Source: Nitrosomonas oligotropha
GTDB lineage: Bacteria > Pseudomonadota > Gammaproteobacteria > Burkholderiales > Nitrosomonadaceae
Assembly: GCF_009833085.1 (NCBI RefSeq)
Contig: NZ_QRBZ01000031.1
Coordinates: 62,001 to 126,000, forward strand
Direction of reading: 5' to 3'
DNA length: 64,000 bases
A model generated the notes under the pieces. It was given only the letters and a program-made list of their open reading frames with translations. It made no database searches and was not told the origin of the DNA. The position numbers were made by a program, and so were the translations under genes. This document shows, piece by piece, positions 3,362 to 16,253 of the stretch (within the stretch, counting starts at the first letter, position 1; each line of letters starts with the position of its first letter).

Positions 3362-5056
3362 CTAAGATTTTATTATTGTCCGTAGTTTTTCTTTTAGCGA
3401 TTCAACTAAACTTGGTCCCTTGGCAGCTCTATCATTACCCCCCTTTTCTTTATACGAATCAAATGCCAGATGTATAGATTTATTTATACATTCATCGGTA
3501 ATTTGCTTAACGTCCAACTTCGCTACAGAATTATTGTTTGGGTAAATGCTTTGAGTAAGTTGTGCTGTAACAGCATAAAGAACATAAAATTTAATATCGT
3601 TTATTTCTGTTGCTGTAAATTTTTTGTTAGCCTTAAGTACTATTTCTATATTTCTACCCCATGAGGATAATATGTAATAAGTATTTAGGTCATTGTTCTT
3701 GTGAAATAATTTGTTATATGAATCATCATCTTCTAAAAGAGTAGAAGGCCTAGCCCTAGCATAATCTGGTTTTTGCATAAGAGAAGACATTAAACACTGT
3801 GACATGAAAGGTATACTAATAATATCTTTAGGTTTTTTCCCCTCATTTTTGTAATAATTCTTACGCCTATCATAGAAAAGTCCTTTGAGTTTTAGGAACT
3901 CCTCAATTTGCCTATGCACCTGATCTGTTGCTCTCAATGATGCTTTTGGAATAGGTGTCTGGCTATTTGTAGCGCGTATGATCTTATCTCTAGTCTCTTC
4001 ATTCTCCGGAACAATAACTCGGATTAGTACATCTCTTTTTTCATGATCTAGCTTATGATTATTTCTTGAGAAATATCGAAATATCTCATTAGAGGTCTGC
4101 AATCCGTTAACAATTTCAGGATTATGAATTACTAGTTCTTTTCCTCCTGGAGCAGATGCCTCGCTTGCTAAAATTGTTACTCCGTTATTTAACCACCAAA
4201 ATTCCTCTGTACCGGGATTTTCTAAAGTATCTTGTATTTCATTGTTGATATTCGCCTTTCTTTGATAATCACGAACATTTGATTCGAAAATATGCTTTAT
4301 TAATTTACCTTCCTCATCAGTAATAAATTTGTAGTATTCAGCTAAATTTGCCAGTGCAATAAATACTTGAGGGGTGGTCGAAAGCGGATTCTCAGAAATT
4401 CTTAGTCTAAAAACATCATTTACTCTCTCTTGAGCGAGTTTCATTAATTGATCTGAACCAACGAATGAAACTTCAACAATAGTGCCTGGAAGTTTCTCAA
4501 TGATATCTTTTCTCAGGTCGTTAGCTTGATTCTCTACATTGGGGTGAACATCAATTCCTTTTGAAACATAGTGGATCGTAATTTTTAGTTTCGGTTTTTT
4601 GGTAATTAAACCCAAATATGTGGTTTTAAAGAGCTCAAATGCAGAAAGGACTTTGTCATTGTATCTTCCTTCAAATTCAGTTCGATCAAAATCCAGGTCA
4701 AAAAGACTCCTGCAAAGCCTTGATAGTTTTAATAGTGTTTCTTCGTTAAATGAATTTTCGTATTTGGCTTGAATTAGAATAAACTCAATATCAACATTCT
4801 TTTTATACTTATCTTTAATATCTTCATCTTCTTTTACTAGTTCGCCATTGACAAAGAGATAAATGGAGTCAGCTCCCCCGTCATGGCTTTCACCGCAACG
4901 ACCTGATTCAACTTCCTCGAAGCTCAGCTCAAAATCTTTTAGAACCTGCAACGAGGCATAAAACTCAAAGAAATCACTTACAGAACTATCTTCTTCATAG
5001 TTTTCTAGTTCTTGCTTAATAATTTCTTCTAAAAGAATTTGATTGTTTTTTGACAT
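3362..5056 (-). CDS. AIPR-family protein (abortive infection/phage resistance), putative nuclease
   Basis: A 564-residue protein. The central part has AIPR-domain signatures: a VRDYQ...NNEIQDTL stretch at about 261-278, FWWLNNGVTIL at about 286-296 and IVNGLQTSNEIF at about 315-326. The N-terminus has DGGAD (59-63) followed about 30 residues later by ILIQAK (93-98), which fits a PD-(D/E)XK nuclease fold as in Mrr-like enzymes. AIPR proteins are linked to abortive phage infection; the biochemical activity here is inferred. Its DNA is markedly more AT-rich than both neighbours and full of A/T-ending codons, a sign of recent transfer. No toxin partner, integrase, tRNA or obvious flanking direct repeat is present, so it appears as a single-gene insertion. 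The start has a GTGAAGAA ribosome binding site directly upstream. Confidence 0.8.
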   Translation of the reverse strand: MSKNNQILLEEIIKQELENYEEDSSVSDFFEFYASLQVLKDFELSFEEVESGRCGESHDGGADSIYLFVNGELVKEDEDIKDKYKKNVDIEFILIQAKYENSFNEETLLKLSRLCRSLFDLDFDRTEFEGRYNDKVLSAFELFKTTYLGLITKKPKLKITIHYVSKGIDVHPNVENQANDLRKDIIEKLPGTIVEVSFVGSDQLMKLAQERVNDVFRLRISENPLSTTPQVFIALANLAEYYKFITDEEGKLIKHIFESNVRDYQRKANINNEIQDTLENPGTEEFWWLNNGVTILASEASAPGGKELVIHNPEIVNGLQTSNEIFRYFSRNNHKLDHEKRDVLIRVIVPENEETRDKIIRATNSQTPIPKASLRATDQVHRQIEEFLKLKGLFYDRRKNYYKNEGKKPKDIISIPFMSQCLMSSLMQKPDYARARPSTLLEDDDSYNKLFHKNNDLNTYYILSSWGRNIEIVLKANKKFTATEINDIKFYVLYAVTAQLTQSIYPNNNSVAKLDVKQITDECINKSIHLAFDSYKEKGGNDRAAKGPSLVESLKEKLRTIIKS

Positions 5057-5141: not shown

Positions 5142-5819
5142 TCAGTTTGTTTCAAAAACAGTAATTGCTGAATTTAATCGTTGCAATAGCCATACCATTG
5201 GTATCTTCTTATCTGGATTTGTTGTTAGCCGATCCAACAACCGCCGTTTACTCTCCCCTGTAACCACCAGCACAATCTGCTCGCTTTGCGCCAGCAGCTT
5301 CAACGAAAGACTGACGCGCAGCGATGGCGCAACCGGTGGTGCGACTGCAATGCAGTGATGGGTGTCAGCTAAATCGGGATTCATGCCGGGAAACAGCGAG
5401 GCAATATGCCCATCTTCGCCCAGTCCCAACACCGTCAGACTCAATGGCAGCGGCAGTTTATCCAAGCGTTGGTGGATTGTTTCGATGGCGTCAAAAGGAT
5501 TATCGTGATCAGTTTTGAGTCCCACGAAGCGCGCGTTTGCGGGAAGGTGATTCATCATGTGCTGCTTGACCAGATGCTCGTTCGATTGTGCATCGTTGAC
5601 ATCGACCCAGCGTTCATCGGATAGCGTGACGGTGATCCGATCCCACGGTAACTGACACTTCGCTAGTGCGGGCAGATAGTGGCGTGGGGTATTGCCGCCG
5701 GGGACGACCAGGGTGGCTTGGGGTTTGCGGCTTAAGGTGTTGCGTAGTGTGGCAGCGGCAAAATCGGCGAAGCCTTGGCTTAACGATTCGATATCCGGGA
5801 AGGCGCGCCTTTGGATCAT
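5142..5819 (-). CDS. pgl: 6-phosphogluconolactonase
   Basis: A 225-residue enzyme, normal length for the DevB/Pgl family, which hydrolyses 6-phosphogluconolactone in the oxidative pentose phosphate pathway. Signatures seen are VVPGGNTPRHYL (about 38-49), LSDERWVD followed by QSNEHLV (about 86-104), and LGLGEDGHIASLFPG (about 149-163), the last holding the His expected at the catalytic site. It is the last gene of a minus-strand run, 13 bases after the HAD gene, so it may be transcribed with the sugar-acid cluster; the neighbour could mean simple hitch-hiking or a lactonase need there. zwf and gnd are not in the window. Confidence 0.9.
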   Translation of the reverse strand: MIQRRAFPDIESLSQGFADFAAATLRNTLSRKPQATLVVPGGNTPRHYLPALAKCQLPWDRITVTLSDERWVDVNDAQSNEHLVKQHMMNHLPANARFVGLKTDHDNPFDAIETIHQRLDKLPLPLSLTVLGLGEDGHIASLFPGMNPDLADTHHCIAVAPPVAPSLRVSLSLKLLAQSEQIVLVVTGESKRRLLDRLTTNPDKKIPMVWLLQRLNSAITVFETN

Positions 5820-5832
5820 GGAACTGCCAATG

Positions 5833-6474
5833 TTATTGCACCAATCCGCGTAAATCCGGGACGATCTCGATATGCGCCGGGAAAGGATTCGGGTCGCCGG
5901 GAAAGACGCGGCCCAGGAAAGCGGTGTTGTTGGCTTGCGCGCCTTCCAAATCCGCCATGGCGTCGCCGATCATCAGCACTGCTTCGGGCTTCAGGTTATG
6001 CGCCGACAAGATTTCCGCGATAATGGTTTTTTTCAGCGCCGGTGCGCCGCGCACAGCGGTGAAATAAGGTGCTAAGCCGCGCCGCTCGACGATCACTTTG
6101 AGTTCGACTTCCGGCGTGCCGGAGGCGACAAATAATGGAATTTTTTGGGATTGCTGACGGATCAATTCGATTGCGCCGGGTACGGCTTCGGCGGCGATGA
6201 CGGCTTCCACGACAAGTTCGGAGAAGCGGATGTCCAGTTGCTTTTCTTCTGCCTCCGTCAGTGGCGGTTGATTGAGAAAATGTTCTTGGAAATGACGGAA
6301 TTTGCGGTAGCGCGACATGCCGCCATTTTGCGTGTGAAATTGCACCACTGCCGCGACGACATCCGCGCCGTACGGGCGATAGAGTTCCGCGAATGCCTGC
6401 GTTTTAATTTTGCCGGATTCGACGACAACGCCGTCGAAATCAAAAACGATCGCTTGCCAGTTAACGTTTCTCAT
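5833..6474 (-). CDS. HAD-superfamily phosphatase
   Basis: A 213-residue HAD hydrolase with all four motifs: DFDGVVVES at about 12-20 (nucleophile Asp12, acid/base Asp14), ASGTPE in the middle (motif II), the Lys of ALKKT (motif III) and IGDAMADLEGA (motif IV). The helical cap between motifs I and II puts it in the beta-phosphoglucomutase/phosphoglycolate phosphatase group. It lies two bases after the SDR gene in the sugar-acid operon, so its most likely job is to dephosphorylate a sugar intermediate, in the role KdsC has in Kdo synthesis; that is inference. A general phosphoglycolate phosphatase remains possible. Confidence 0.75.
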   Translation of the reverse strand: MRNVNWQAIVFDFDGVVVESGKIKTQAFAELYRPYGADVVAAVVQFHTQNGGMSRYRKFRHFQEHFLNQPPLTEAEEKQLDIRFSELVVEAVIAAEAVPGAIELIRQQSQKIPLFVASGTPEVELKVIVERRGLAPYFTAVRGAPALKKTIIAEILSAHNLKPEAVLMIGDAMADLEGAQANNTAFLGRVFPGDPNPFPAHIEIVPDLRGLVQ

Positions 6475-6476
6475 GG

Positions 6477-7406
6477 CTACGCGCGATTGTCCGATGTGGA
6501 TGGGGTGGCGTCGTCGTTTTCATCGCCATGCCGCAAATCCTGGTGGATTTCCCGCAAGCAATCGAGAATACCTTGTCCCAGATCGACGTGTTCATTGAGC
6601 ACCAGCTTGCGCCCGATGCGCGGTTGAAATGCGTATGGGGTGATTTCGTAGTGATGCACCGCGTTGGCTTCATCGAAATGCAATTCCACTGGCCACGGCA
6701 GGATTTCCGAGATCATCGTCATGACATCTTTGATGCGTAACCTTTCCTGGCCGGTCAGAATCATGTGCCGGTTGGCAAATTCGGGCGCCAATATTTGCAC
6801 GCTCATGCGCGCCGCATCTTCCACATGGATATATTCACGCATGGCGTCGCCGCTGCCTTTGTACGTGATGGAATGATGCGCGACCGCTTCGTGCAGCATG
6901 CGGTAGATGCCGTTGCGTTTATCGGAGCGCCGCCCGTACAGCGAGCCATAGCGCAGAATGCTGTAATCCAGGCCGTAGCGCTCGTGGTAGGTCTCGGTGA
7001 AACGTTCCGCGGCCTGTTTACTGGCGCGGTAAAAAGAGCCGGATTCGGAATAGACATAAATGCTGCTGGCGAACACAAACCGGCGCGCCCCGGCGACACG
7101 CGCGGCTTCCAACGCGTGCATGTTGCCCAGCACGTTGATGGTCGCGGTCGGGATCGGTTTGTCGTTGGCTTCGTCGATATCGGCGATGGCGGCGAAGTTG
7201 TAGACGATGGAAGTGCCTTTGGCGGCTGCGATCACTTGATCGAGATTCATGATGTCGCCGATGATCATTTCCTGATTGCTTTTCAGATACGGCGACGGAC
7301 TGCGGTCGAATAGCCGTACCCGGTAACCTGCGGCCGATAATGCATCCGCGACGTGGCTGCCGAGAAACCCGCTGGCGCCAAATACCACAACCTGTTCATT
7401 CACCAT
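6477..7406 (-). CDS. NAD-dependent sugar epimerase/dehydratase (extended SDR)
   Basis: A 309-residue extended short-chain dehydrogenase. GASGFLGSHVA at residues 10-20 is the dinucleotide-binding Gly-rich loop, and YRASK at 126-130 with upstream SS at 114-115 is the catalytic Tyr-Lys-Ser set. The family interconverts nucleotide sugars or related sugars with NAD(P). The gene starts four bases after the dehydrogenase gene and ends two bases before the HAD gene. The exact reaction cannot be told from sequence; within this operon it probably shapes the sugar that is joined to pyruvate by the aldolase. Confidence 0.8.
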   Translation of the reverse strand: MVNEQVVVFGASGFLGSHVADALSAAGYRVRLFDRSPSPYLKSNQEMIIGDIMNLDQVIAAAKGTSIVYNFAAIADIDEANDKPIPTATINVLGNMHALEAARVAGARRFVFASSIYVYSESGSFYRASKQAAERFTETYHERYGLDYSILRYGSLYGRRSDKRNGIYRMLHEAVAHHSITYKGSGDAMREYIHVEDAARMSVQILAPEFANRHMILTGQERLRIKDVMTMISEILPWPVELHFDEANAVHHYEITPYAFQPRIGRKLVLNEHVDLGQGILDCLREIHQDLRHGDENDDATPSTSDNRA

Positions 7407-7410
7407 AGTG

Positions 7411-8349
7411 TTATCCGTTATTGACGAGACCTGATTTGATTAAGCCCTGCAGCAGATTTTCCGCCGCTTCGATTTCCATGCGCTGGCGCGATTCGCGCGC
7501 CAGGGAGCCGACATGCGAGGTCAGAATGACGTTGCTGCATTCGAGCAGCGAGCCGTGATACGGTTCCTGCTCAAAAACATCCAGCGCCGCGGCGCTGATT
7601 TTGCCGGATTGCAGTGCGGCCAGCAGTGCGTTTTCATCGACCAATCCGCCGCGCGCCGCGTTGATGACGATGGCTTCCGGTTTCATCGCGGCGAATGCCT
7701 TGGCATCCAGTAAATGATGCATATCCGCGCTATACGGAGTATGCAGCGTGACAATGTCGGCGCTGGCCAGCAATTGTTCCAACGGCAGCATGCTGACACC
7801 GTCCGGTATTTGGCTGGCATACGGATCGTGCGCGACCACCGTGGCTTCAAACGTCTGGCACAAGCGCGCCACGCGGCGGCCGATGTGTCCCAAACCGATG
7901 ACGCCGACGGTTTGCGCCGCGAACAAGCGGCCTTGCGTACGCGGCCATTCGCCCTTGCGTACCGCCCGGTCGATCGGGTTGATTTGCCGCAATAGGCTCA
8001 GAATGTAACCCAGCGTCAGCTCCGCCACGGCTTGTGCGGGCGCTTCCGGTGTATTCAGAACATGAATGCCGCGATTTTTCGCTGCCGCCAGATCGACGCT
8101 ATCCATGCCGGCGCCGCAGCGCGAGATGACTTTCAGATTCGGCGCGGCTTGAAACACCCGTTCGGTCAACGGTTCGATCCCGGCGATCAGGCCGGTAGCG
8201 CCGCCGCTCAGCAGCGCGATGATTTCATCTTCGGTGAGCTTGCGTTTGTGCGGATTGGTGATGACCTGAAAACCGTGTTGCAGCAGGCGCTGAATGGCCG
8301 GATTGTTACCGGTATCGAACGACGACGTGGAAATGACAAATGAGCTCAT
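7411..8349 (-). CDS. D-2-hydroxyacid dehydrogenase (phosphoglycerate dehydrogenase-like)
   Basis: A 312-residue protein of the D-isomer-specific 2-hydroxyacid dehydrogenase family. GLGHIG at 152-157 is the NAD-binding loop; the catalytic triad is seen as Arg233 in NAARGG, Glu262 in DVFEQEP and His279 in TSHVGS. It lacks the C-terminal ACT domain of full SerA, so a role in bulk serine synthesis is less likely. Its ATG overlaps the stop of the upstream aldolase gene (ATGA), which implies coupled translation. In context it probably oxidises or reduces a 2-keto/2-hydroxy sugar acid; substrate unknown. Confidence 0.8.
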   Translation of the reverse strand: MSSFVISTSSFDTGNNPAIQRLLQHGFQVITNPHKRKLTEDEIIALLSGGATGLIAGIEPLTERVFQAAPNLKVISRCGAGMDSVDLAAAKNRGIHVLNTPEAPAQAVAELTLGYILSLLRQINPIDRAVRKGEWPRTQGRLFAAQTVGVIGLGHIGRRVARLCQTFEATVVAHDPYASQIPDGVSMLPLEQLLASADIVTLHTPYSADMHHLLDAKAFAAMKPEAIVINAARGGLVDENALLAALQSGKISAAALDVFEQEPYHGSLLECSNVILTSHVGSLARESRQRMEIEAAENLLQGLIKSGLVNNG

Positions 8350-9116
8350 GATGTTTTCAAAGTGGCGCGGATGCTTTGTAAATGCGTGCGGCAGATGGAA
8401 TCGAGAATGCGGATATCCAATCCATAACCGAGGAAATTAAAACCGGCTTGAATGCGTTGCTGCAATGCTTGCGGATCCGGTTCGATGACGTGAATGCCGC
8501 CGGGTTTCTGCGCGCGGCGGCCTGCTTCCAGCACTTGCGCGATGGTCGCTTGCACATCCGGGTGATTGAGATCGCCGGGGCGTCCCATCGAACCGGATAA
8601 GTCGTACGGGCCAATGATATACGCATCGATACCGGGAACAGCCAGAATCTCGTCAATCGCTTTGACCGCGTCGACATGTTCGATCATGACGACGATCACC
8701 GCGTTTTCTTCCAGCCACTGCCGGTAAGCCTGGAAACTCGAACCATAACCCTGCGCACGCGCCAGACCGACGCCGCGTTGTCCGCGCGGCGGGTAGTACA
8801 CGCCATCCACCGCTGCTTTGGCATCGGCGGCGGATTTGATCATCGGCACCATGATCCCAGTAGCACCGGCGTCCATGACACGTTTGATCTGATCGGGATG
8901 ATTGGAAGTGAGGCGCACGATGGCCGGACATTGCTTGCCGTCCAGCACTTGAATAATGGCTTGCACTTCGCTGAGTTCCAGCACGCTGTGCTCCATATCC
9001 AGCACCAGCCAGTCAAATCCGGCCGATGCCATGATTTCGGCAATCGACGGATGCCCCAATGTAACCCACGAACCGATGGTCAATTCAGACCGGTTCAATC
9101 TTGATTTCAATGACAT
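8346..9116 (-). CDS. HpcH/HpaI-family class II aldolase
   Basis: A 256-residue aldolase. Features of the family are all present: DMEH with His43 (general base), Arg68 in AIVRLT, YPPRGQRGVG at 108-117, MIEH with metal ligand Glu146, and GPYDLSGSMG with metal ligand Asp172. These enzymes use a divalent metal to join pyruvate to an aldehyde, or to split 2-keto-3-deoxy acids. Catabolic homologues sit with aromatic degradation genes, but here the gene lies eight bases after a CMP-sugar synthetase-like gene and overlaps a hydroxyacid dehydrogenase gene by four bases. I therefore infer a synthetic role: making a 3-deoxy-2-ulosonic acid. The direction of reaction and the aldehyde are unknown. Confidence 0.8.
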   Translation of the reverse strand: MSLKSRLNRSELTIGSWVTLGHPSIAEIMASAGFDWLVLDMEHSVLELSEVQAIIQVLDGKQCPAIVRLTSNHPDQIKRVMDAGATGIMVPMIKSAADAKAAVDGVYYPPRGQRGVGLARAQGYGSSFQAYRQWLEENAVIVVMIEHVDAVKAIDEILAVPGIDAYIIGPYDLSGSMGRPGDLNHPDVQATIAQVLEAGRRAQKPGGIHVIEPDPQALQQRIQAGFNFLGYGLDIRILDSICRTHLQSIRATLKTS

Positions 9117-9124
9117 AATGATTC

Positions 9125-9874
9125 CTAGTAGCGGGAAAGTAACGGGTCGGATTGCATCAGTTTTTCAACCCGCGCCAGATCGGCGGGGGTATCCACGGCC
9201 TGGGTATCGAATCCGGTAGGCACCATTTTCACCTGCATGCCATGCTCGAGCAGGCGCAGCATGTCGATCGATTCCAATTTTTCCAGCGGTGTCGGTGTCA
9301 ACTGTGTGTATTGATACAAGGTGCTGCGGCGGAATGGAATAATGCAGACCTGCTTGTATGCCGCGGTATCGGCAAAACCGCTTTTTGCGATTGTCGGAAT
9401 CGGGCGGCGCGACATATACAGCGCGTCGTTGTGTTGATTCATGACGACCTTGATGGTATTGGCGTCGAGGTAATCGGCTTCATGGTCGATTTTGCGTACC
9501 AGATTGACACAGCCCAGTTTCGGGTCATCCTTGAAAGGCGCTACGGCGGTATCGATCATATCGGGGTGCGTCATCGGTTCATCGCCTTGCACCATGACGA
9601 TCAGATCCGCATCCAGGTAAACCACCGCTTCCGCGACGCGATCGCTGGCGCGTTCGTGTATATCGGAGGTCATGATGACTTGTGCGCCGAAACCTTCCGC
9701 AGCTTGGCGGATTTCTTCATCACAGGTGGCGATATAGGTGGCGTCGAGTGATTTACTCATGGCCACGCGTTTATAGATGTGTTCGATCATCGGGCGTCCG
9801 AGGATTTTTGCCAGGGGTTTGCCGGGGAAACGCGATGAGCCCATGCGGGCCGGTATGACAGCGATAGTTTTCAT
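9125..9874 (-). CDS. KdsB-like CMP-3-deoxy-ulosonate cytidylyltransferase
   Basis: A 249-residue nucleotidyltransferase counted from ATG 9872-9874 (MKTIAVIPARMGSSRFPGKP), where family alignments begin; the frame runs further upstream without support. VIPAR...S-R-PGKP is the CTP-binding loop and VQGDEPM the Mg-binding motif of KdsB, which activates Kdo with CTP for transfer to lipid A. It is first in an operon with an HpcH/HpaI aldolase and has no kdsA beside it, so it may activate a different ulosonic acid; it could alternatively be the cell's only KdsB. The Shine-Dalgarno sequence is poor. The promoter must lie in the 270-base gap shared with the divergent gene at 10145. Confidence 0.75.
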   Translation of the reverse strand: MKTIAVIPARMGSSRFPGKPLAKILGRPMIEHIYKRVAMSKSLDATYIATCDEEIRQAAEGFGAQVIMTSDIHERASDRVAEAVVYLDADLIVMVQGDEPMTHPDMIDTAVAPFKDDPKLGCVNLVRKIDHEADYLDANTIKVVMNQHNDALYMSRRPIPTIAKSGFADTAAYKQVCIIPFRRSTLYQYTQLTPTPLEKLESIDMLRLLEHGMQVKMVPTGFDTQAVDTPADLARVEKLMQSDPLLSRY

Positions 9875-10144: not shown

Positions 10145-11410
10145 ATGAAAGCGCTTTTTTTTCTTCGTCACTATAACGATATCGATCATGTTACTCCGGT
10201 CATTTACAAATGGATTAAGTCCGGTCATCAATGTGATGTGGTATTAATCGGTTCCACCCAATTCCGCCGCGATTTCCGCATTCAATACTTGAGTCAGCTC
10301 GAAGGTGTGCGCGTTGCGCATATGAGAGAGCTGTTTCCGCTGGCCGAGTATATACAATGGCGTTTACAGATGCTGATGCTGACGCGCAATGTGCGGCGTA
10401 TCAAAGTGATCGGCGGTCTGGCTGAGAAACTGGCCGATCGTTACGATGGAAAGCAGCGTGAACCGTTGTGGCGGCATACCGCCGATTTTCTGCTCAACCG
10501 GTGTTTTGGCGCTACAGGGAAAGGTGTTGTCGCATTTGACTGGATTGAACGCAATTCGGTGATTTGTTTGGAATGGGTTGAAGTGGTGATTGCCATGGCA
10601 AAAGAACGCGGTTTGGGTACGATTTCGCTGCCGCATGGCGATAGTCCGCATTACAGCCAATTGATCCGGCGCGGAGAAAGACAGCTGAAGCCCGATGCCA
10701 CATTTTCGGCGGCGACGATATTCGATAGGGTGGTTGTGCCCAATGAATTATGTTCCGTGCGTTTCCGCCCGTTTATGACGGACAATCAGCTGGCGGTATT
10801 GGGTTCGCCGCGCTACTGTGAAGAGTGGCTAAAAATACTGGCCGGGTTGATGCCGCCTTCGCCGTTGGTCCGTTCGGATAGCCGATTGAAGATTGTTATG
10901 TTTCTGAGAAAAGCCAACTTCACGACATTCTGGGAAGAAGTCGGTGAAGTGGTGCATATGATCGCCGAATTTCCCGGTGTCGAGTTGGTCATCAAGCCAC
11001 ATACCCGCAGCGGCTGGAAACAATCCCTGACCACCGATAGTTCAATTAAAAAATTACCCAATGTTCGTGTTGCGAGTGATGACGCGCATTCGGTGCATTT
11101 GATGAACTGGGCGGATGTCATCATCGATCTGGCGACTTCCGTGGTATTTGAAGCGGTCAGGGCGAGAAAGCCGGTTCTGGCGGCTGATTATTTGATCGCG
11201 GCGCGTTCTGCGGTGGCGTATTACATGCCGGAAACCGAACTGAAAAGCCGTGACGATGTATATGAAAAAATCAACCATTTCCTGACGCATGGCTGCGATG
11301 CTTTCTATATCGAAGAACACCGGCAGCGTTTCTTGCAGGAAATGCTGGATTACCCGGATGCCGATGTGTTGCCCCGTTATGTATCCCTGCTTGAACAGCT
11401 GGCGGATTGA
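10145..11410 (+). CDS. Putative GT-B-type surface carbohydrate biosynthesis protein
   Basis: A 421-residue protein from ATG 10145 (MKALFFLRHYNDIDH); an upstream ATG at 10055 is a possible alternative start. It resembles GT-B enzymes of the glycerophosphotransferase or capsule type. It has an N-terminal Rossmann-like half with a SLPHGDSPHYS loop, a linker, and a C-terminal half with VIKPHTRSG and DVIIDLATSVVFEAVRARKP, where the last Glu would contact a nucleotide donor. I cannot name the family with certainty. It is first in the plus-strand glycan unit and divergent from the KdsB-like operon, so it is a reasonable candidate for transferring the CMP-activated sugar made there; that is inference only. 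Confidence 0.5.
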   Translation: MKALFFLRHYNDIDHVTPVIYKWIKSGHQCDVVLIGSTQFRRDFRIQYLSQLEGVRVAHMRELFPLAEYIQWRLQMLMLTRNVRRIKVIGGLAEKLADRYDGKQREPLWRHTADFLLNRCFGATGKGVVAFDWIERNSVICLEWVEVVIAMAKERGLGTISLPHGDSPHYSQLIRRGERQLKPDATFSAATIFDRVVVPNELCSVRFRPFMTDNQLAVLGSPRYCEEWLKILAGLMPPSPLVRSDSRLKIVMFLRKANFTTFWEEVGEVVHMIAEFPGVELVIKPHTRSGWKQSLTTDSSIKKLPNVRVASDDAHSVHLMNWADVIIDLATSVVFEAVRARKPVLAADYLIAARSAVAYYMPETELKSRDDVYEKINHFLTHGCDAFYIEEHRQRFLQEMLDYPDADVLPRYVSLLEQLAD

Positions 11411-11472: not shown

Positions 11473-12237
11473 ATGCGGATAAAAGACATCTTGAATGAAT
11501 TGGTGGTGGCCGCTTACAAATTGAAAGGCGGCTGTACCGATGTGCTGGTGAGGGGGCAGCGTATTTTAATTTCTGTCGATCACTTGCGCACACTCAATCG
11601 CGCCAAGACGTATTCAAAAAAAGAACCCGATACCCTGGATTGGCTCGATAGCTTTGAACCCGGCTCGTGCTATTTCGATATCGGCGCCAATATCGGGCAA
11701 TATTCGCTATATCCGGCCAAAAAATACGGCGATAAAGTGCAGGTATTTGCGTTTGAACCGCAAAGCAATAATTACTATGCGCTCAATAAAAATATCTACC
11801 TGAACAACCTGGGGAAAAATATTTTATCTTACTGCGTGGCGGTGTCGGGACGCAGTGAATTTTCCAAATTGTTTATTCCCAAATTCATTCCGGGCGGAAA
11901 CCGTTCGCAGTTCGGACATGAGGACCTGGAGAACATGAAAATGTCGGCAACGCATATCCAAGGGATGTTCGGCGTGACATTGGACGATCTGTGCGGACAA
12001 TGGGGGTTCCCGGTGCCGAATTACATGAAAATCGATGTCGATGGCATTGAAATTCCCATTTTGCAGGGCGCATCGGCGGTTTTGGCAAACCCGGCGCTGA
12101 AATCCGTGATCATAGAGCTTGGCACCGATACCGAGCAGGAAAAAGCCATTGCCATCATGAAACAGGCCGGTCTCGAAGTGAAGCAAAGACCGTCCAAAAA
12201 CTGGGGCGAAAGCTATTTGATTTTTGGCCGGGTGTGA
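11473..12237 (+). CDS. FkbM-family methyltransferase
   Basis: A 254-residue SAM-dependent methyltransferase. FDIGANIGQYSLY at about 69-81 is motif I, followed by VFAFEPQ (acidic residue binding the SAM ribose) and, near the C-terminus, YMKIDVDGIEIPILQGA, the typical FkbM signature. The family O-methylates sugars in polysaccharides, glycolipids and polyketides. It lies between two glycosyltransferase-type genes in the glycan cluster, so a sugar residue is the likely substrate. The start ATG 11473 follows GAGGGAGTGTGA. Confidence 0.85.
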   Translation: MRIKDILNELVVAAYKLKGGCTDVLVRGQRILISVDHLRTLNRAKTYSKKEPDTLDWLDSFEPGSCYFDIGANIGQYSLYPAKKYGDKVQVFAFEPQSNNYYALNKNIYLNNLGKNILSYCVAVSGRSEFSKLFIPKFIPGGNRSQFGHEDLENMKMSATHIQGMFGVTLDDLCGQWGFPVPNYMKIDVDGIEIPILQGASAVLANPALKSVIIELGTDTEQEKAIAIMKQAGLEVKQRPSKNWGESYLIFGRV

Positions 12238-12262
12238 TGCATTAAAATTTCTCAGGCAGAAC

Positions 12263-13288
12263 ATGACGAGTGAAACTGCTGCGCCAATCATTGATGTCGT
12301 AATCCCTGTTTATAATGCAGCGGAATTGACCAAGCGGTGCATTGATTCCGTCATCGCCTGCTTGGGTTCATCGATCAGAACAATTCATATCCAGGACGAT
12401 GCATCGGCGGCTGAAACCCGCGCCATGCTCGACAATTTATCTTATTCCCAACTGCATGTTTACCATGCGCCTGAAAATCAGGGGTATGGGAAGTCTGTCA
12501 ACGATGCGGTGGCGCGTTCCGATGCCGATTGGGTGCTGGTGCTGAATTCCGATATCGAAGTGTTGAATAATTTTCTGCCATCGTTGTGCGGCGCCTTTGC
12601 CGCCGATCCCCAGCTGGCGGTCATTAGTCCGATGGAAGGCGATAGTGCGGAAACACAGGCCGGCCGTTACGTGCGGCAGCCGGGCGGATATATCGCCACC
12701 TATCGTTTCAGAGGTTACGCATTTTTGATCCGCCGCGCTGTTTTTCAGGCAATGGGCGGTTTCGATGCGCAGTTTGGCCGGGGCTATTATGAAGATACCG
12801 ATCTGGGGCGGCGGTTGGATCAACAAGGCTGGCGCATGGGTGTGCATCCGGATGCAACCGTTCGTCACGAAACCGGCGCATCGTTCGGGCGCGGGAAAGC
12901 TTACCGGGAATTGGTGCAACGTAACCGGTCGCTCTATTTGTCGCGTTATCCGCTGGCCCGGCAAAATGTGCTGGCCGTTTCCGGCGATGCTGCGTGGGCT
13001 GGCTTGCCATCCCGGATCGCGGATTCTATGGAACAAGTGATGCGGCAAGGCGGGCGGTTGCATTGGCTGACACCGGCGTCATTGCCGCAGTTGCCGTGCC
13101 TGCAACTGCGTAACGGTAAAGCGGGCTTTAAAACGATCGTGAAACTGATGCTGCGTGGCTGGTCACGCCAAGATAAGCGCATCACCGCCGTGTGGATTTT
13201 GCCGGGCGTACCGGCGGGACTGCGCATTATATTGGCGCTGTTCGTCCGCGTGTACCGGCTGGAAATGCGCGAGTGGAAAGCGGATTAG
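12263..13288 (+). CDS. Glycosyltransferase family 2
   Basis: A 341-residue GT-A fold transferase starting at ATG 12263 (an upstream TTG at 12224 overlaps fkbM and is less likely). VVIPVYNAAELTKRCID opens the domain, LVLNSDIEV holds the DxD-like metal and nucleotide site, and GGFDAQFGRGYYEDTDLGRRL is the acceptor and base region seen in rhamnosyltransferase-like GT2 enzymes. It would add a sugar to the lipid-linked glycan at the cytoplasmic membrane face. The C-terminal 80 residues are basic and may associate with the membrane. Donor and acceptor are unknown. Confidence 0.85.
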   Translation: MTSETAAPIIDVVIPVYNAAELTKRCIDSVIACLGSSIRTIHIQDDASAAETRAMLDNLSYSQLHVYHAPENQGYGKSVNDAVARSDADWVLVLNSDIEVLNNFLPSLCGAFAADPQLAVISPMEGDSAETQAGRYVRQPGGYIATYRFRGYAFLIRRAVFQAMGGFDAQFGRGYYEDTDLGRRLDQQGWRMGVHPDATVRHETGASFGRGKAYRELVQRNRSLYLSRYPLARQNVLAVSGDAAWAGLPSRIADSMEQVMRQGGRLHWLTPASLPQLPCLQLRNGKAGFKTIVKLMLRGWSRQDKRITAVWILPGVPAGLRIILALFVRVYRLEMREWKAD

Positions 13289-13364
13289 CTTGCACCGGAA
13301 TAATGGCCTTTCACGTTATCGGGAATTTCACCACGACTTATAAAAACTTCGCTTGACTGGCTTT

Positions 13365-14558
13365 ATGCAAATATCCATCACACGGCAGGAAATATTCATC
13401 CGGTTCGCGCTGGTTCTCGTCTGCGCGGGATTCTGGCGCGGCGAAGTGAATCTGCTTGCCTTTCCATTGTTGATTATTGCTAGTTTGATGGACGGTGGTT
13501 TGTATCGATTGCATCAGGCTCTCAAGCTGCCTTTGGTGCAAGCGATTGTGCTGCTGTGTATGTTGTTGCTGGCCGGATTGCTGTGGAGCGAGCCGCTCGA
13601 TCATGGCAGGATGAAATGGGTGAAGTACTTTACCTTGCTGATTCTGGTTCCATTCTATTTATTGCTGAATAAGGAGCGCTTGCCCTGGGCAATCGGTGGA
13701 TTGGTTACGGGTTATCTGCTGGTTCTTGGTTTAGGTGTGTATCAGTGGCAGGTGACAGGTGAGCAAGGAATTGCGCTGTTGAAAATGTCCTATCTGAGCT
13801 TTTCGGCGATGCTTGGAGCGGGCGCAATCGTGGCTGTCGGACTGGCTTGCGTGAGCCGCTCGGTGCCGCTGGCAATCGTCTTGTGGATGGCTGCCATCGC
13901 ATTAATTTATGTGCAGTTTCATCAGTACGGCCGGGTGCTTCTGCTGGCGACGCTGATGGCCGTCGTGTTGCAAATTTACCTGCGCTATAAACTGGATATA
14001 CGGAAATTCTTCGGTATTTTTGCAGTTGTGTCGATAGCCGCCGGGATTTTTGCCTATAGCAGCCCTGCCTTTCAAGAAAGATTGCTGTTGGTTAAAAGCG
14101 ATATCGAATTGTTGCAGCAAGGCAATTACAGTTCCAGTTTGGGATACCGCCTGGCCATGTGGGATGTCGGCTTGCATGGCATTGCCGAGCGTCCATGGAC
14201 CGGGTATGGCACGGGTGCGCCGGAGCGTTATTTCGATACCACGATTCAGACTTACAAAAACGGTCTTTATAAGGACTTACCGGCATTCCAGAAGACATCG
14301 CATTACCATAACGACTGGATTGAAATCGGCATGCATGTCGGTATCGCGGGCCTGCTGGCGGTGCTATTTCTTTATTGGGCCTGGTATCAGACATTCCGGA
14401 GAATCGGCTTGGGTCTGCTCGGGGCCGGTTTGGTAAGTTATATTTTTCTCGCAGGGCTGACGGATGCCTTTCTTATTTTCAGTAGGATGCCGGTATTATT
14501 GCTGGCGATCACCGCGATCGCCATGCGCTGGCATCAACAAAAACCGGAAAGGACTTAA
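13365..14558 (+). CDS. O-antigen ligase / polymerase-like membrane protein (Wzy_C type)
   Basis: A 397-residue polytopic protein, with about ten hydrophobic segments seen on reading. ATG 13365 is preferred over a TTG at 13353. The HYHNDWIEIGMHVGIAGLL segment at about 311-329 sits in the large periplasmic loop and matches the HN..E signature of WaaL ligases and related polymerases. Such proteins transfer undecaprenyl-linked glycan to lipid A core, to another chain or to protein. Its place between a GT2 gene and methyltransferases fits the last step of a surface glycan pathway. Ligase and polymerase cannot be told apart from sequence. Confidence 0.8.
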   Translation: MQISITRQEIFIRFALVLVCAGFWRGEVNLLAFPLLIIASLMDGGLYRLHQALKLPLVQAIVLLCMLLLAGLLWSEPLDHGRMKWVKYFTLLILVPFYLLLNKERLPWAIGGLVTGYLLVLGLGVYQWQVTGEQGIALLKMSYLSFSAMLGAGAIVAVGLACVSRSVPLAIVLWMAAIALIYVQFHQYGRVLLLATLMAVVLQIYLRYKLDIRKFFGIFAVVSIAAGIFAYSSPAFQERLLLVKSDIELLQQGNYSSSLGYRLAMWDVGLHGIAERPWTGYGTGAPERYFDTTIQTYKNGLYKDLPAFQKTSHYHNDWIEIGMHVGIAGLLAVLFLYWAWYQTFRRIGLGLLGAGLVSYIFLAGLTDAFLIFSRMPVLLLAITAIAMRWHQQKPERT

Positions 14559-14564
14559 GCGGCG

Positions 14565-15545
14565 ATGTCAGCAGAACGGATTGGCACGGAAACAAATGCA
14601 ACTTGCTATTCGTGCGGCAAACCCGGCGAAGTCCTGTATCGCGGCCTGACTGACCGGCTGTTTGGCGCGCCGGGTGAGTGGACACTGAGAAAATGCACGG
14701 ATGCCGAGTGCGGTCTGATCTGGCTTGATCCCAGACCGGCGGTGGACGAAATTGGCAAGGCTTACCGCAATTATTATACGCACGGCCATGCGAATCACGC
14801 GCGGCAATCACGTTGGACGCGCATCGTTCGTGCTATTTTGCATACCCTAAGTATCCATTTGCTGGGATTACGGCGTGAACGGCGGCGTTATAAGCGTATT
14901 TATCTGGATCAAACACCGCCGGGACGACTGCTGGAAGTAGGCTGCGGTAATGGAAAACGGCTGGCGCGCATGCGCGCATTGGGCTGGGAGGTGATGGGGC
15001 AGGAAATTGACCCGGTGGCTGCGGAACATGTGCGTCATGTAAAAGGAATCCCGGTGCATTTAGGGCCGCTTGAAACCATCGAGCCGGGTGAATATGATGT
15101 CGTGCTGCTGAGTCACGTGATCGAGCATGTGCACGATCCTGTGGCGATGCTGATGACTTGCCATCGTTTGCTGAAGCACAATGGTCTTCTTGTGGTGTTG
15201 ACGCCGAACGCCGCGAGTTATGGGCACAGTCAGTTTGGCGCCGCATGGCGCGGTCTTGAGCCGCCCCGGCATTTGCATCTATTTACCAGCCAAACGTTAA
15301 GCCAACTGGCGCAGAAAGCCGGTTTCAGCGACCCACGCTGCTGGACAACACCGGTCGGTGCGTACGGCATTGGTCAGAGCAGTCCGCCATTGACTGAGGC
15401 GGGAATCGGACAGCAGTCCGTTACGATGCGCGATGTCCTACGGGGATTCAGGTTTCAGGTGGCGGCCAGCCTGGTTTTTCTGCTGAATAAAAACTCCGGT
15501 GAAGAGTGTGTGTTAATGGCATCAAAGAAAACAACTCCGATCTGA
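14565..15545 (+). CDS. Class I SAM-dependent methyltransferase with N-terminal zinc-ribbon
   Basis: A 326-residue protein beginning six bases after the ligase gene. The N-terminus has CYSCGKPG and a later C-(5)-C pair (KCTDAECG), a zinc-ribbon-like head common in sugar methyltransferases. The methyltransferase domain follows with LEVGCGNGKRL (motif I), SHVIEHVHDP and LTPNAASYG, then a PPRHLHLF segment typical of Methyltransf_11/23 enzymes in glycan clusters. The likely role is methylation of a sugar or end-capping of the chain; the substrate is unknown. Confidence 0.8.
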   Translation: MSAERIGTETNATCYSCGKPGEVLYRGLTDRLFGAPGEWTLRKCTDAECGLIWLDPRPAVDEIGKAYRNYYTHGHANHARQSRWTRIVRAILHTLSIHLLGLRRERRRYKRIYLDQTPPGRLLEVGCGNGKRLARMRALGWEVMGQEIDPVAAEHVRHVKGIPVHLGPLETIEPGEYDVVLLSHVIEHVHDPVAMLMTCHRLLKHNGLLVVLTPNAASYGHSQFGAAWRGLEPPRHLHLFTSQTLSQLAQKAGFSDPRCWTTPVGAYGIGQSSPPLTEAGIGQQSVTMRDVLRGFRFQVAASLVFLLNKNSGEECVLMASKKTTPI

Positions 15546-15569
15546 TTAGCGATCATAAAGGGGAAATCA

Positions 15570-16253
15570 ATGAACGATATTCAATCAGCGGTTATTCCTG
15601 AGTCAGGCGGATTCATTCCGGTTAATCCGGCAATCGAAGCGTATATGCGTACTTTGCTTACGCACAGCGATCACCCGGTGCTTGCTGAGATGGAAGAATT
15701 TGCGCAGCTGAGAAATTTCCCCATTGTTAACCGCTTGACCGGTATTTTTCTTGAAACTCAGGCGAAAATGATTAATGCCAAGCGGATATTTGAATTTGGC
15801 AGCGGTTATGGCTATTCGGCGTATTGGTTTGCAAGAGCGGTCGGCGCCGGCGGGCGTGTGATATGCAGCGACGCGAATGCCAGTAATCGCGCGCGTGCGG
15901 AGAAATATCTCACTGCTGCTGATGTATGGCAACGGATAGAATTTTGCGTGGGGCTGGCGCAGGATGTTTTTGCCCAAACGGATGGAATATTCGATATTTG
16001 TTATAACGATGTAGACAAGAGCGATTATCCGGAAATCTGGCGGATGGCGAAGCAGCGTATCCGTTCCGGCGGGTTGTATATTGCCGATAATGTGCTGTGG
16101 CATGGCCGTGTCGCGTTAAAAGGCTCGCAAGAGACGATGAGTGGTTCGACAGAAGCCATTATGGAACATAACCGGCTGATTTTTAATGATCCTGATTTTG
16201 ATGCGTTTATCAATCCGACCCGCGACGGTGTGATCGTTGCCAGAAAGAAATAA
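15570..16253 (+). CDS. O-methyltransferase-like protein (class I SAM)
   Basis: A 227-residue protein with good ribosome binding site AAAGGGGAAATCA before ATG 15570. FEFGSGYGYSAYWFARAVG at about 72-90 is the SAM motif I of the caffeoyl-CoA/catechol O-methyltransferase family, and DICYNDVDKSDYPE is the metal-binding region equivalent; IADNVLWHGRV follows as in family members. It is the last gene of the plus-strand glycan unit, so it may modify the glycan, although this family usually acts on small catechols. Substrate unknown. Confidence 0.75.
   Translation: MNDIQSAVIPESGGFIPVNPAIEAYMRTLLTHSDHPVLAEMEEFAQLRNFPIVNRLTGIFLETQAKMINAKRIFEFGSGYGYSAYWFARAVGAGGRVICSDANASNRARAEKYLTAADVWQRIEFCVGLAQDVFAQTDGIFDICYNDVDKSDYPEIWRMAKQRIRSGGLYIADNVLWHGRVALKGSQETMSGSTEAIMEHNRLIFNDPDFDAFINPTRDGVIVARKK

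Follow-up and report, generated by a model that had tools for sequence, protein, structure and literature searches.

A five-gene set of Nitrosomonadaceae that probably directs an aldolase-based pathway to a CMP-activated 2-ulosonate

The set and its closest described counterparts

To our knowledge, all cytidine monophosphate (CMP)-ulosonates whose synthesis is known, namely those of 3-deoxy-D-manno-oct-2-ulosonic acid (Kdo), sialic, legionaminic and pseudaminic acid, are built by synthases dependent on phosphoenolpyruvate (PEP). The present analysis concerns a set of five tightly packed open reading frames (ORFs) on the minus strand of Nitrosomonas oligotropha contig NZ_QRBZ01000031.1. The set occupies positions 5833-9874 of the 64,000-nucleotide stretch under study (the window) and comprises genes for a KdsB-like cytidylyltransferase, an HpcH/HpaI aldolase, a 2-hydroxyacid dehydrogenase, a short-chain dehydrogenase/reductase (SDR) and a HAD phosphatase. 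With moderate confidence, the set is regarded as a pathway to a CMP-activated 2-ulosonate other than Kdo, in which the aldolase replaces the PEP-dependent synthase and which would serve a surface glycan of these ammonia-oxidising bacteria. If true, a pathway of this kind would add a new means of CMP-ulosonate synthesis, one founded on an aldolase.

Profile searches place all five proteins far above the Pfam cut-offs (Table 1). They agree with the families read by the first-pass annotation, which was made from the letters of the window, and the ORFs lie at the positions it had given; counted from the KdsB-like to the HAD gene, they are separated by 8, -4, 4 and 2 bases.

With the Kdo pathway (KdsD-KdsA-KdsC-KdsB) and WaaA the set shares, as known here from sequence, a KdsB-fold enzyme with the same residues for cytidine triphosphate (CTP) and magnesium and the predicted CMP activation of a 2-ulosonate (PMC3149649). 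It differs in that KdsA, WaaA and an above-cut-off KdsD are missing, the linked gene is that of a class II pyruvate-type aldolase and not of a PEP-dependent synthase, and the sugar-side residues of the cytidylyltransferase are different. The 8-amino-Kdo pathway of Shewanella (KdnA, KdnB and a KdsB homolog) likewise contains a KdsB homolog whose sugar specificity is altered, but it begins with Kdo made by KdsA and includes an aminotransferase step, and both are lacking here. Nonulosonate pathways combine a PEP-dependent NeuB-type synthase with a NeuA/PseF-type cytidylyltransferase; they resemble the set in the 2-keto sugar acid, the CMP activation, the SDR enzymes and the location in surface-glycan loci, whereas an HpcH aldolase and a KdsB-type enzyme are employed here. 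HpaI, GarL, RhmA and the hydroxyketoacid aldolase SwHKA belong to the same family as the aldolase of the set and have the same catalytic His/Arg/Glu/Asp, but the latter lacks a catabolic context and reaches no equivalog cut-off. Surface-carbohydrate loci with a TIGR04326 protein are similar insofar as KdsB-like and HpcH genes lie beside such a protein in one distant locus (L086, see below) and beside a weak one in another (L087), while at the Nitrosomonas locus, to which this comparison was confined, a different GT-B-fold protein adjoins the set. No description of a pathway with HpcH and kdsB was found in the open-access literature, subscription journals being outside this scope, and the first-pass annotation had likewise known of none with this exact set.

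Conservation of the set and loss of Kdo and lipid A genes

A search of further genomes for the five-gene set, which had been proposed as a check, returned the identical order in 75 of the 80 named loci of Nitrosomonadaceae (Nitrosomonas, Nitrosospira and Nitrosovibrio). In the remaining five a contig end truncates the set, or it is split (L133) or contains a partial HpcH (L191). Median gaps in the 75 loci, measured between alignment ends, amount to 20, -1, 14 and 5 bases. The aldolase is present at 78-100% identity in all 37 Nitrosomonas genomes tested, and in each a KdsB-like gene lies at a distance of about 130 bp, as measured between match ends. The KdsB-like gene itself is retained in 122 of the 125 family genomes, the three without it being 66-90% complete.

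All five genes are found again, in a different order, at locus L086 of G397, a genome from a distant family within the class. Here an FkbM and a second methyltransferase gene lie between aldolase and cytidylyltransferase, within a polysaccharide locus that also contains genes for cytidine diphosphate (CDP)-sugars and in which the TIGR04326 protein directly adjoins the cytidylyltransferase. Furthermore, a polysaccharide locus of genome G226 (L087:3033-10214) contains a row of dehydrogenase, dehydroquinate (DHQ)-synthase-like cyclase, SDR, Gfo/Idh oxidoreductase, HpcH and cytidylyltransferase, possibly for a pathway that is related to the present one but leads to a different ulosonate or to a cyclitol. 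Since the order is kept within the family and the set recurs reordered in a distant polysaccharide locus, the linkage is considered functional, and chance clustering is ruled out on the same grounds. The reordering with retention of all five genes favors a shared pathway.

This bears on an arrangement in which one operon serves separate pathways, so that small acids (glycolate, hydroxypyruvate or similar) are handled by the aldolase, the dehydrogenase and the HAD phosphatase, apart from the KdsB-like enzyme. HpcH/HpaI and phosphoglycerate dehydrogenase (PGDH)-like proteins are mostly catabolic or housekeeping, and the 6-phosphogluconolactonase gene (pgl) next door is metabolic. However, pgl adjoins the set in Nitrosomonas only, no aromatic or sugar-acid catabolic genes are seen in the neighborhood of the set, and the five genes stay together both family-wide and in the distant locus. 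Separate pathways are thus considered quite unlikely.

In two Nitrosomonas loci (L091 and L133, the latter from MAG_20) the set seems to be split at the start of the SDR gene, with the genes for dehydrogenase, HpcH and KdsB-like protein apart from those for SDR, HAD and pgl, either by a true rearrangement or by misassembly.

The genes that normally provide lipid A and Kdo, its linker sugar, have disappeared from the Nitrosomonadaceae; for LpxC and KdsA this holds across the whole family. Not one of the 125 family genomes, of which 99 are at least 90% complete and clean, yielded KdsA (TIGR01362), whereas 23/24 other families of the order possess it. LpxC is likewise missing from all 125 but present in 18/18 elsewhere in the order, and WaaA (PF04413) is found in 0/37 congeners as compared to 24/24 in other families of the order. 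For the KdsD/KpsF isomerase (TIGR00393), none of 28 congeners exceeds the cut-off, partial weak matches alone being obtained, while 17 of 18 others do. The counts outside the family served as positive controls and came out as expected. Named relatives of the SDR assign the window to Nitrosomonas, near N. oligotropha Nm75. The host genome measures 3.12 Mb (70 contigs; completeness 100, contamination 0.04), and the KdsB-like protein is its only CTP_transf_3 (PF02348) protein. The second, canonical kdsB that the first-pass annotation had suggested looking for elsewhere in the genome, together with a kdsA, was therefore not found by this PF02348 search, and kdsA is missing as well.

In N. europaea, a survey of 2010 had recorded lpxK as the one gene present out of the nine for Kdo2-lipid A (PMC3087551). 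The family-wide loss of LpxC and KdsA with LptD kept, in globally important nitrifiers, extends this observation, and the composition of the outer leaflet of these bacteria becomes a directly testable question. Unexpectedly, LptD is encoded in 124 of the 125 family genomes devoid of LpxC; in the host its gene (G000:C33:25091-26191; L220:8171-10435) is found in the order lptD-surA-pdxA-ksgA. The transport pore for lipopolysaccharide (LPS) thus persists although LpxC is gone, and LptD represents an LPS translocon in a background that lacks key lipid A genes. Sphingolipid genes have been described in N. eutropha (PMC9386255, PMC11324152). A wider and rather doubtful reading is that Kdo and lipid A have been replaced throughout the family by a new CMP-ulosonate, made with a pyruvate or hydroxypyruvate aldolase and attached as linker to a non-lipid A glycolipid, perhaps sphingolipid-based, that the Lpt machine delivers to the outer membrane. 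The five genes would then provide the counterpart of Kdo in an LPS devoid of lipid A.

The cytidylyltransferase and its partner enzymes

By its residue pattern and its position in the tree, the KdsB-like enzyme CYTIDYLYLTRANSFERASE is a subtype different from canonical KdsB. It passes the subfamily models NF009905 (316 bits, cut-off 255) and NF003952 alone, does not reach the cut-off of the kdsB equivalog TIGR00466 (144.5 vs 155.2 bits) and aligns over its full length with solved KdsB and KpsU. In the alignment with canonical enzymes R10, S13, R15, K19, D98 and D228 are retained. The CTP/Mg residues (R10, K19, D98 and D225 in KpsU numbering) are invariant across 112 family loci; this and the following counts stem from 111-113 loci for all five enzymes, not all of them independent, as some genomes were fetched by two routes. 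In the Aquifex enzyme D95 and D219, here D98 and D228, bind Mg-A, and the conserved K19 is thought to be catalytic (PMC3149649).

On the sugar side, in contrast, Q175, C177, I179, F181, D204 and M205 (window numbering) are present in all 112 family loci, where H, G, Y, Y/F, E and Q are found both in 23 canonical enzymes, in which these positions are invariant, and in nine more proteins of KdsB type (L077-L085), about 40% identical to that of the window, in which they are conserved. In KpsU numbering the changes are H172>Q, G174>C, Y176>I, Y178>F, E201>D, Q202>M and R162>A, so that the motif HxGxYxY + EQ has become QxCxIxF + DM in every family member. The E. coli KdsB counterparts R164, H181, Y185, E210 and Q211 are presumably Kdo contacts. 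Kdo binding in the Aquifex enzyme is accomplished by the C-terminal domain, the domain that carries the replaced residues (PMC3149649). The L086 cytidylyltransferase depicts the identical Q/C/I/F/D/M pattern, that of L087 Q/A/M/F/E/L. Phylogenetically, a single clade (97/83) unites the family with L086; L087 adjoins it (100/99), and canonical KdsB stands apart. Plasmid-borne relatives are of KdsB type with 35-40% identity and added no further information.

These replacements also affect an alternative in which ordinary Kdo is made through an aldolase bypass: the HAD phosphatase would free D-arabinose, HpcH would add pyruvate and the KdsB-like enzyme would form CMP-Kdo. Kdo is formally the sum of pyruvate and D-arabinose, there is one KdsB-like gene and no KdsA, and the best model scores of the protein are to models named KdsB. 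Contrary to this, WaaA is missing from all 37 congeners, a KdsD-type isomerase stays under the cut-off, the Kdo-side invariants are replaced in all members, and the SDR and the dehydrogenase would be left without a role. The bypass is therefore considered unlikely. A product other than Kdo is preferred because KdsA, WaaA and LpxC are absent and KdsD is under its cut-off while the KdsB-like gene has been kept with changed sugar-side residues. According to the first-pass annotation, a single kdsB with normal Kdo as its only substrate would have spoken against its proposal; the gene is indeed single, but Kdo as sole substrate does not fit the lack of KdsA, WaaA and an above-cut-off KdsD.

Several points weigh against a non-Kdo pathway built on the aldolase. 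The excess of changes over the whole sugar domain is modest (16/27 canonical invariants changed vs 13/36 in the rest of the protein), and weight is therefore placed on the named sugar-side positions; even there, a lost residue pattern is not proof of lost Kdo binding. Homologs at this level are named 'CMP-Kdo synthetase' by NCBI. Recurrence at a distance comprises one full (G397) and one partial case (G226) among 369 genomes of the class. Finally, no PEP-dependent synthase of KdsA or NeuB type is encoded in the operon and no KdsA in the genome, but NeuB was not searched for genome-wide, and a synthase of another family may thus be present.

The partner enzymes possess their catalytic residues. 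His43, Arg68, Glu146 and Asp172 of the aldolase, which had been read as intact in the window, are present and invariant across 111 family loci. Its scores are below the equivalog cut-offs for HpaI (191/369 bits), GarL (175/407) and RhmA (148/441), by which a catabolic enzyme of these three types is ruled out. The dehydrogenase matches TIGR01327 with 257.8 bits over residues 18-304, its closest solved relative is the PGDH 1wwk, and R233, E262 and H279 are invariant in the alignment of family loci. Y126 and K130 of the SDR are invariant in 113 loci, and none of the NCBIfam equivalog cut-offs is reached by this protein. In the HAD phosphatase the DxD, S and DxxxD motif residues are invariant.

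As to activities, product, carbon donor, order of steps and acceptor, we infer the following scheme. The aldolase would join pyruvate or hydroxypyruvate to an aldehyde, yielding a 4-hydroxy-2-keto acid whose ring form is a 2-ulosonate, and the KdsB-like enzyme would transfer CMP from CTP to the anomeric hydroxyl of the latter. The SDR and the HAD phosphatase may prepare the aldehyde (or remove a phosphate), while the PGDH-like dehydrogenase may supply or adjust the 2-keto or 2-hydroxy acid. Alternatively, dehydrogenase and phosphatase together could convert 3-phosphoglycerate to hydroxypyruvate, giving a 3-hydroxy ulosonate like D-glycero-D-talo-oct-2-ulosonic acid (Ko), or the HAD phosphatase and SDR together could shape the aldehyde; no choice is made between these placements.

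Aldol reactions of the HpcH/HpaI family are reversible, and the aldolase might accordingly degrade, rather than make, the keto acid or sugar that the cytidylyltransferase activates. Such salvage or turnover would require a second source of the sugar; no source of KdsA or NeuB type is linked to the set and KdsA is absent, and the proposal is considered very improbable. CMP-ulosonate biosynthesis with an aldolase in place of the synthase is thus, as far as the sequence tells, probably the right core reading. For this core of the first-pass annotation, an aldolase in KdsA's place and a product other than Kdo, the missing KdsA (0/125) and WaaA (0/37), the sugar-side changes and the reordered distant set all speak, whereas in the detailed route that it had drawn other placements of the dehydrogenase and the HAD phosphatase would fit equally well.

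Neighboring genes

The polysaccharide cluster on the opposite strand begins about 160-270 bp from the set (Table 1). A promoter scan of the divergent gap upstream of the set gave matches no better than chance.

Table 1. Features of the set and its surroundings (window positions).
Feature	Position	Strand	Remarks
KdsB-like cytidylyltransferase	9125-9874	-	249 aa, ATG start at 9874; PF02348 171.7 bits
HpcH/HpaI class II aldolase	8346-9116	-	256 aa; PF03328 127.1 bits (cut-off 25)
D-2-hydroxyacid dehydrogenase	7411-8349	-	PF02826/PF00389; PGDH-like catalytic core, C-terminal regulatory domain missing
Extended SDR, NAD-dependent epimerase/dehydratase family	6477-7406	-	PF01370 143 bits
HAD-IA phosphatase, beta-phosphoglucomutase (beta-PGM)-like	5833-6474	-	213 aa; PF00702 68.8 bits, also PF13419
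6-Phosphogluconolactonase (pgl)	5142-5819		13 bp downstream of the set
GT-B-fold protein	10148-11410	+	divergently transcribed; AlphaFold model pLDDT 77, pTM 0.79
Polysaccharide genes	11473-16253	+	FkbM methyltransferase, GT2, Wzy_C/WaaL-type O-antigen ligase, two more methyltransferases; PF05050, PF00535, PF04932, PF13489, PF01596
ORF, AIPR-like by eye	3362-5056		564 aa

The divergently transcribed GT-B-fold protein is a candidate user of the activated sugar, because its gene adjoins the set in Nitrosospira too. The folds nearest to its model are UDP-GlcNAc 2-epimerases and GT-B glycosyltransferases (Z 18-23), with a polysialyltransferase lower in the list; a solved sequence relative was not found. 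An assignment as a known Kdo transferase was not adopted, the fold being generic (GT-B/UDP-GlcNAc 2-epimerase). Kdo transferases are not among the fold matches listed, which is no evidence against such a role. The gene is missing beside the set in Nitrosomonas L116, L117, L119-L121 and L106. In Nitrosomonas L107, L110-L115 and L118 it is found twice, flanking FkbM.

On the other side, pgl was ruled out as a sixth member of the set because it lies beside it in Nitrosomonas only and not in the loci of Nitrosospira and Nitrosovibrio. The 564-aa ORF beyond pgl lies in a stretch with a GC content of 0.42-0.47, as compared to about 0.55 in the set. The 40 loci of relatives used for comparison all lack it, and it looks like a recent arrival.

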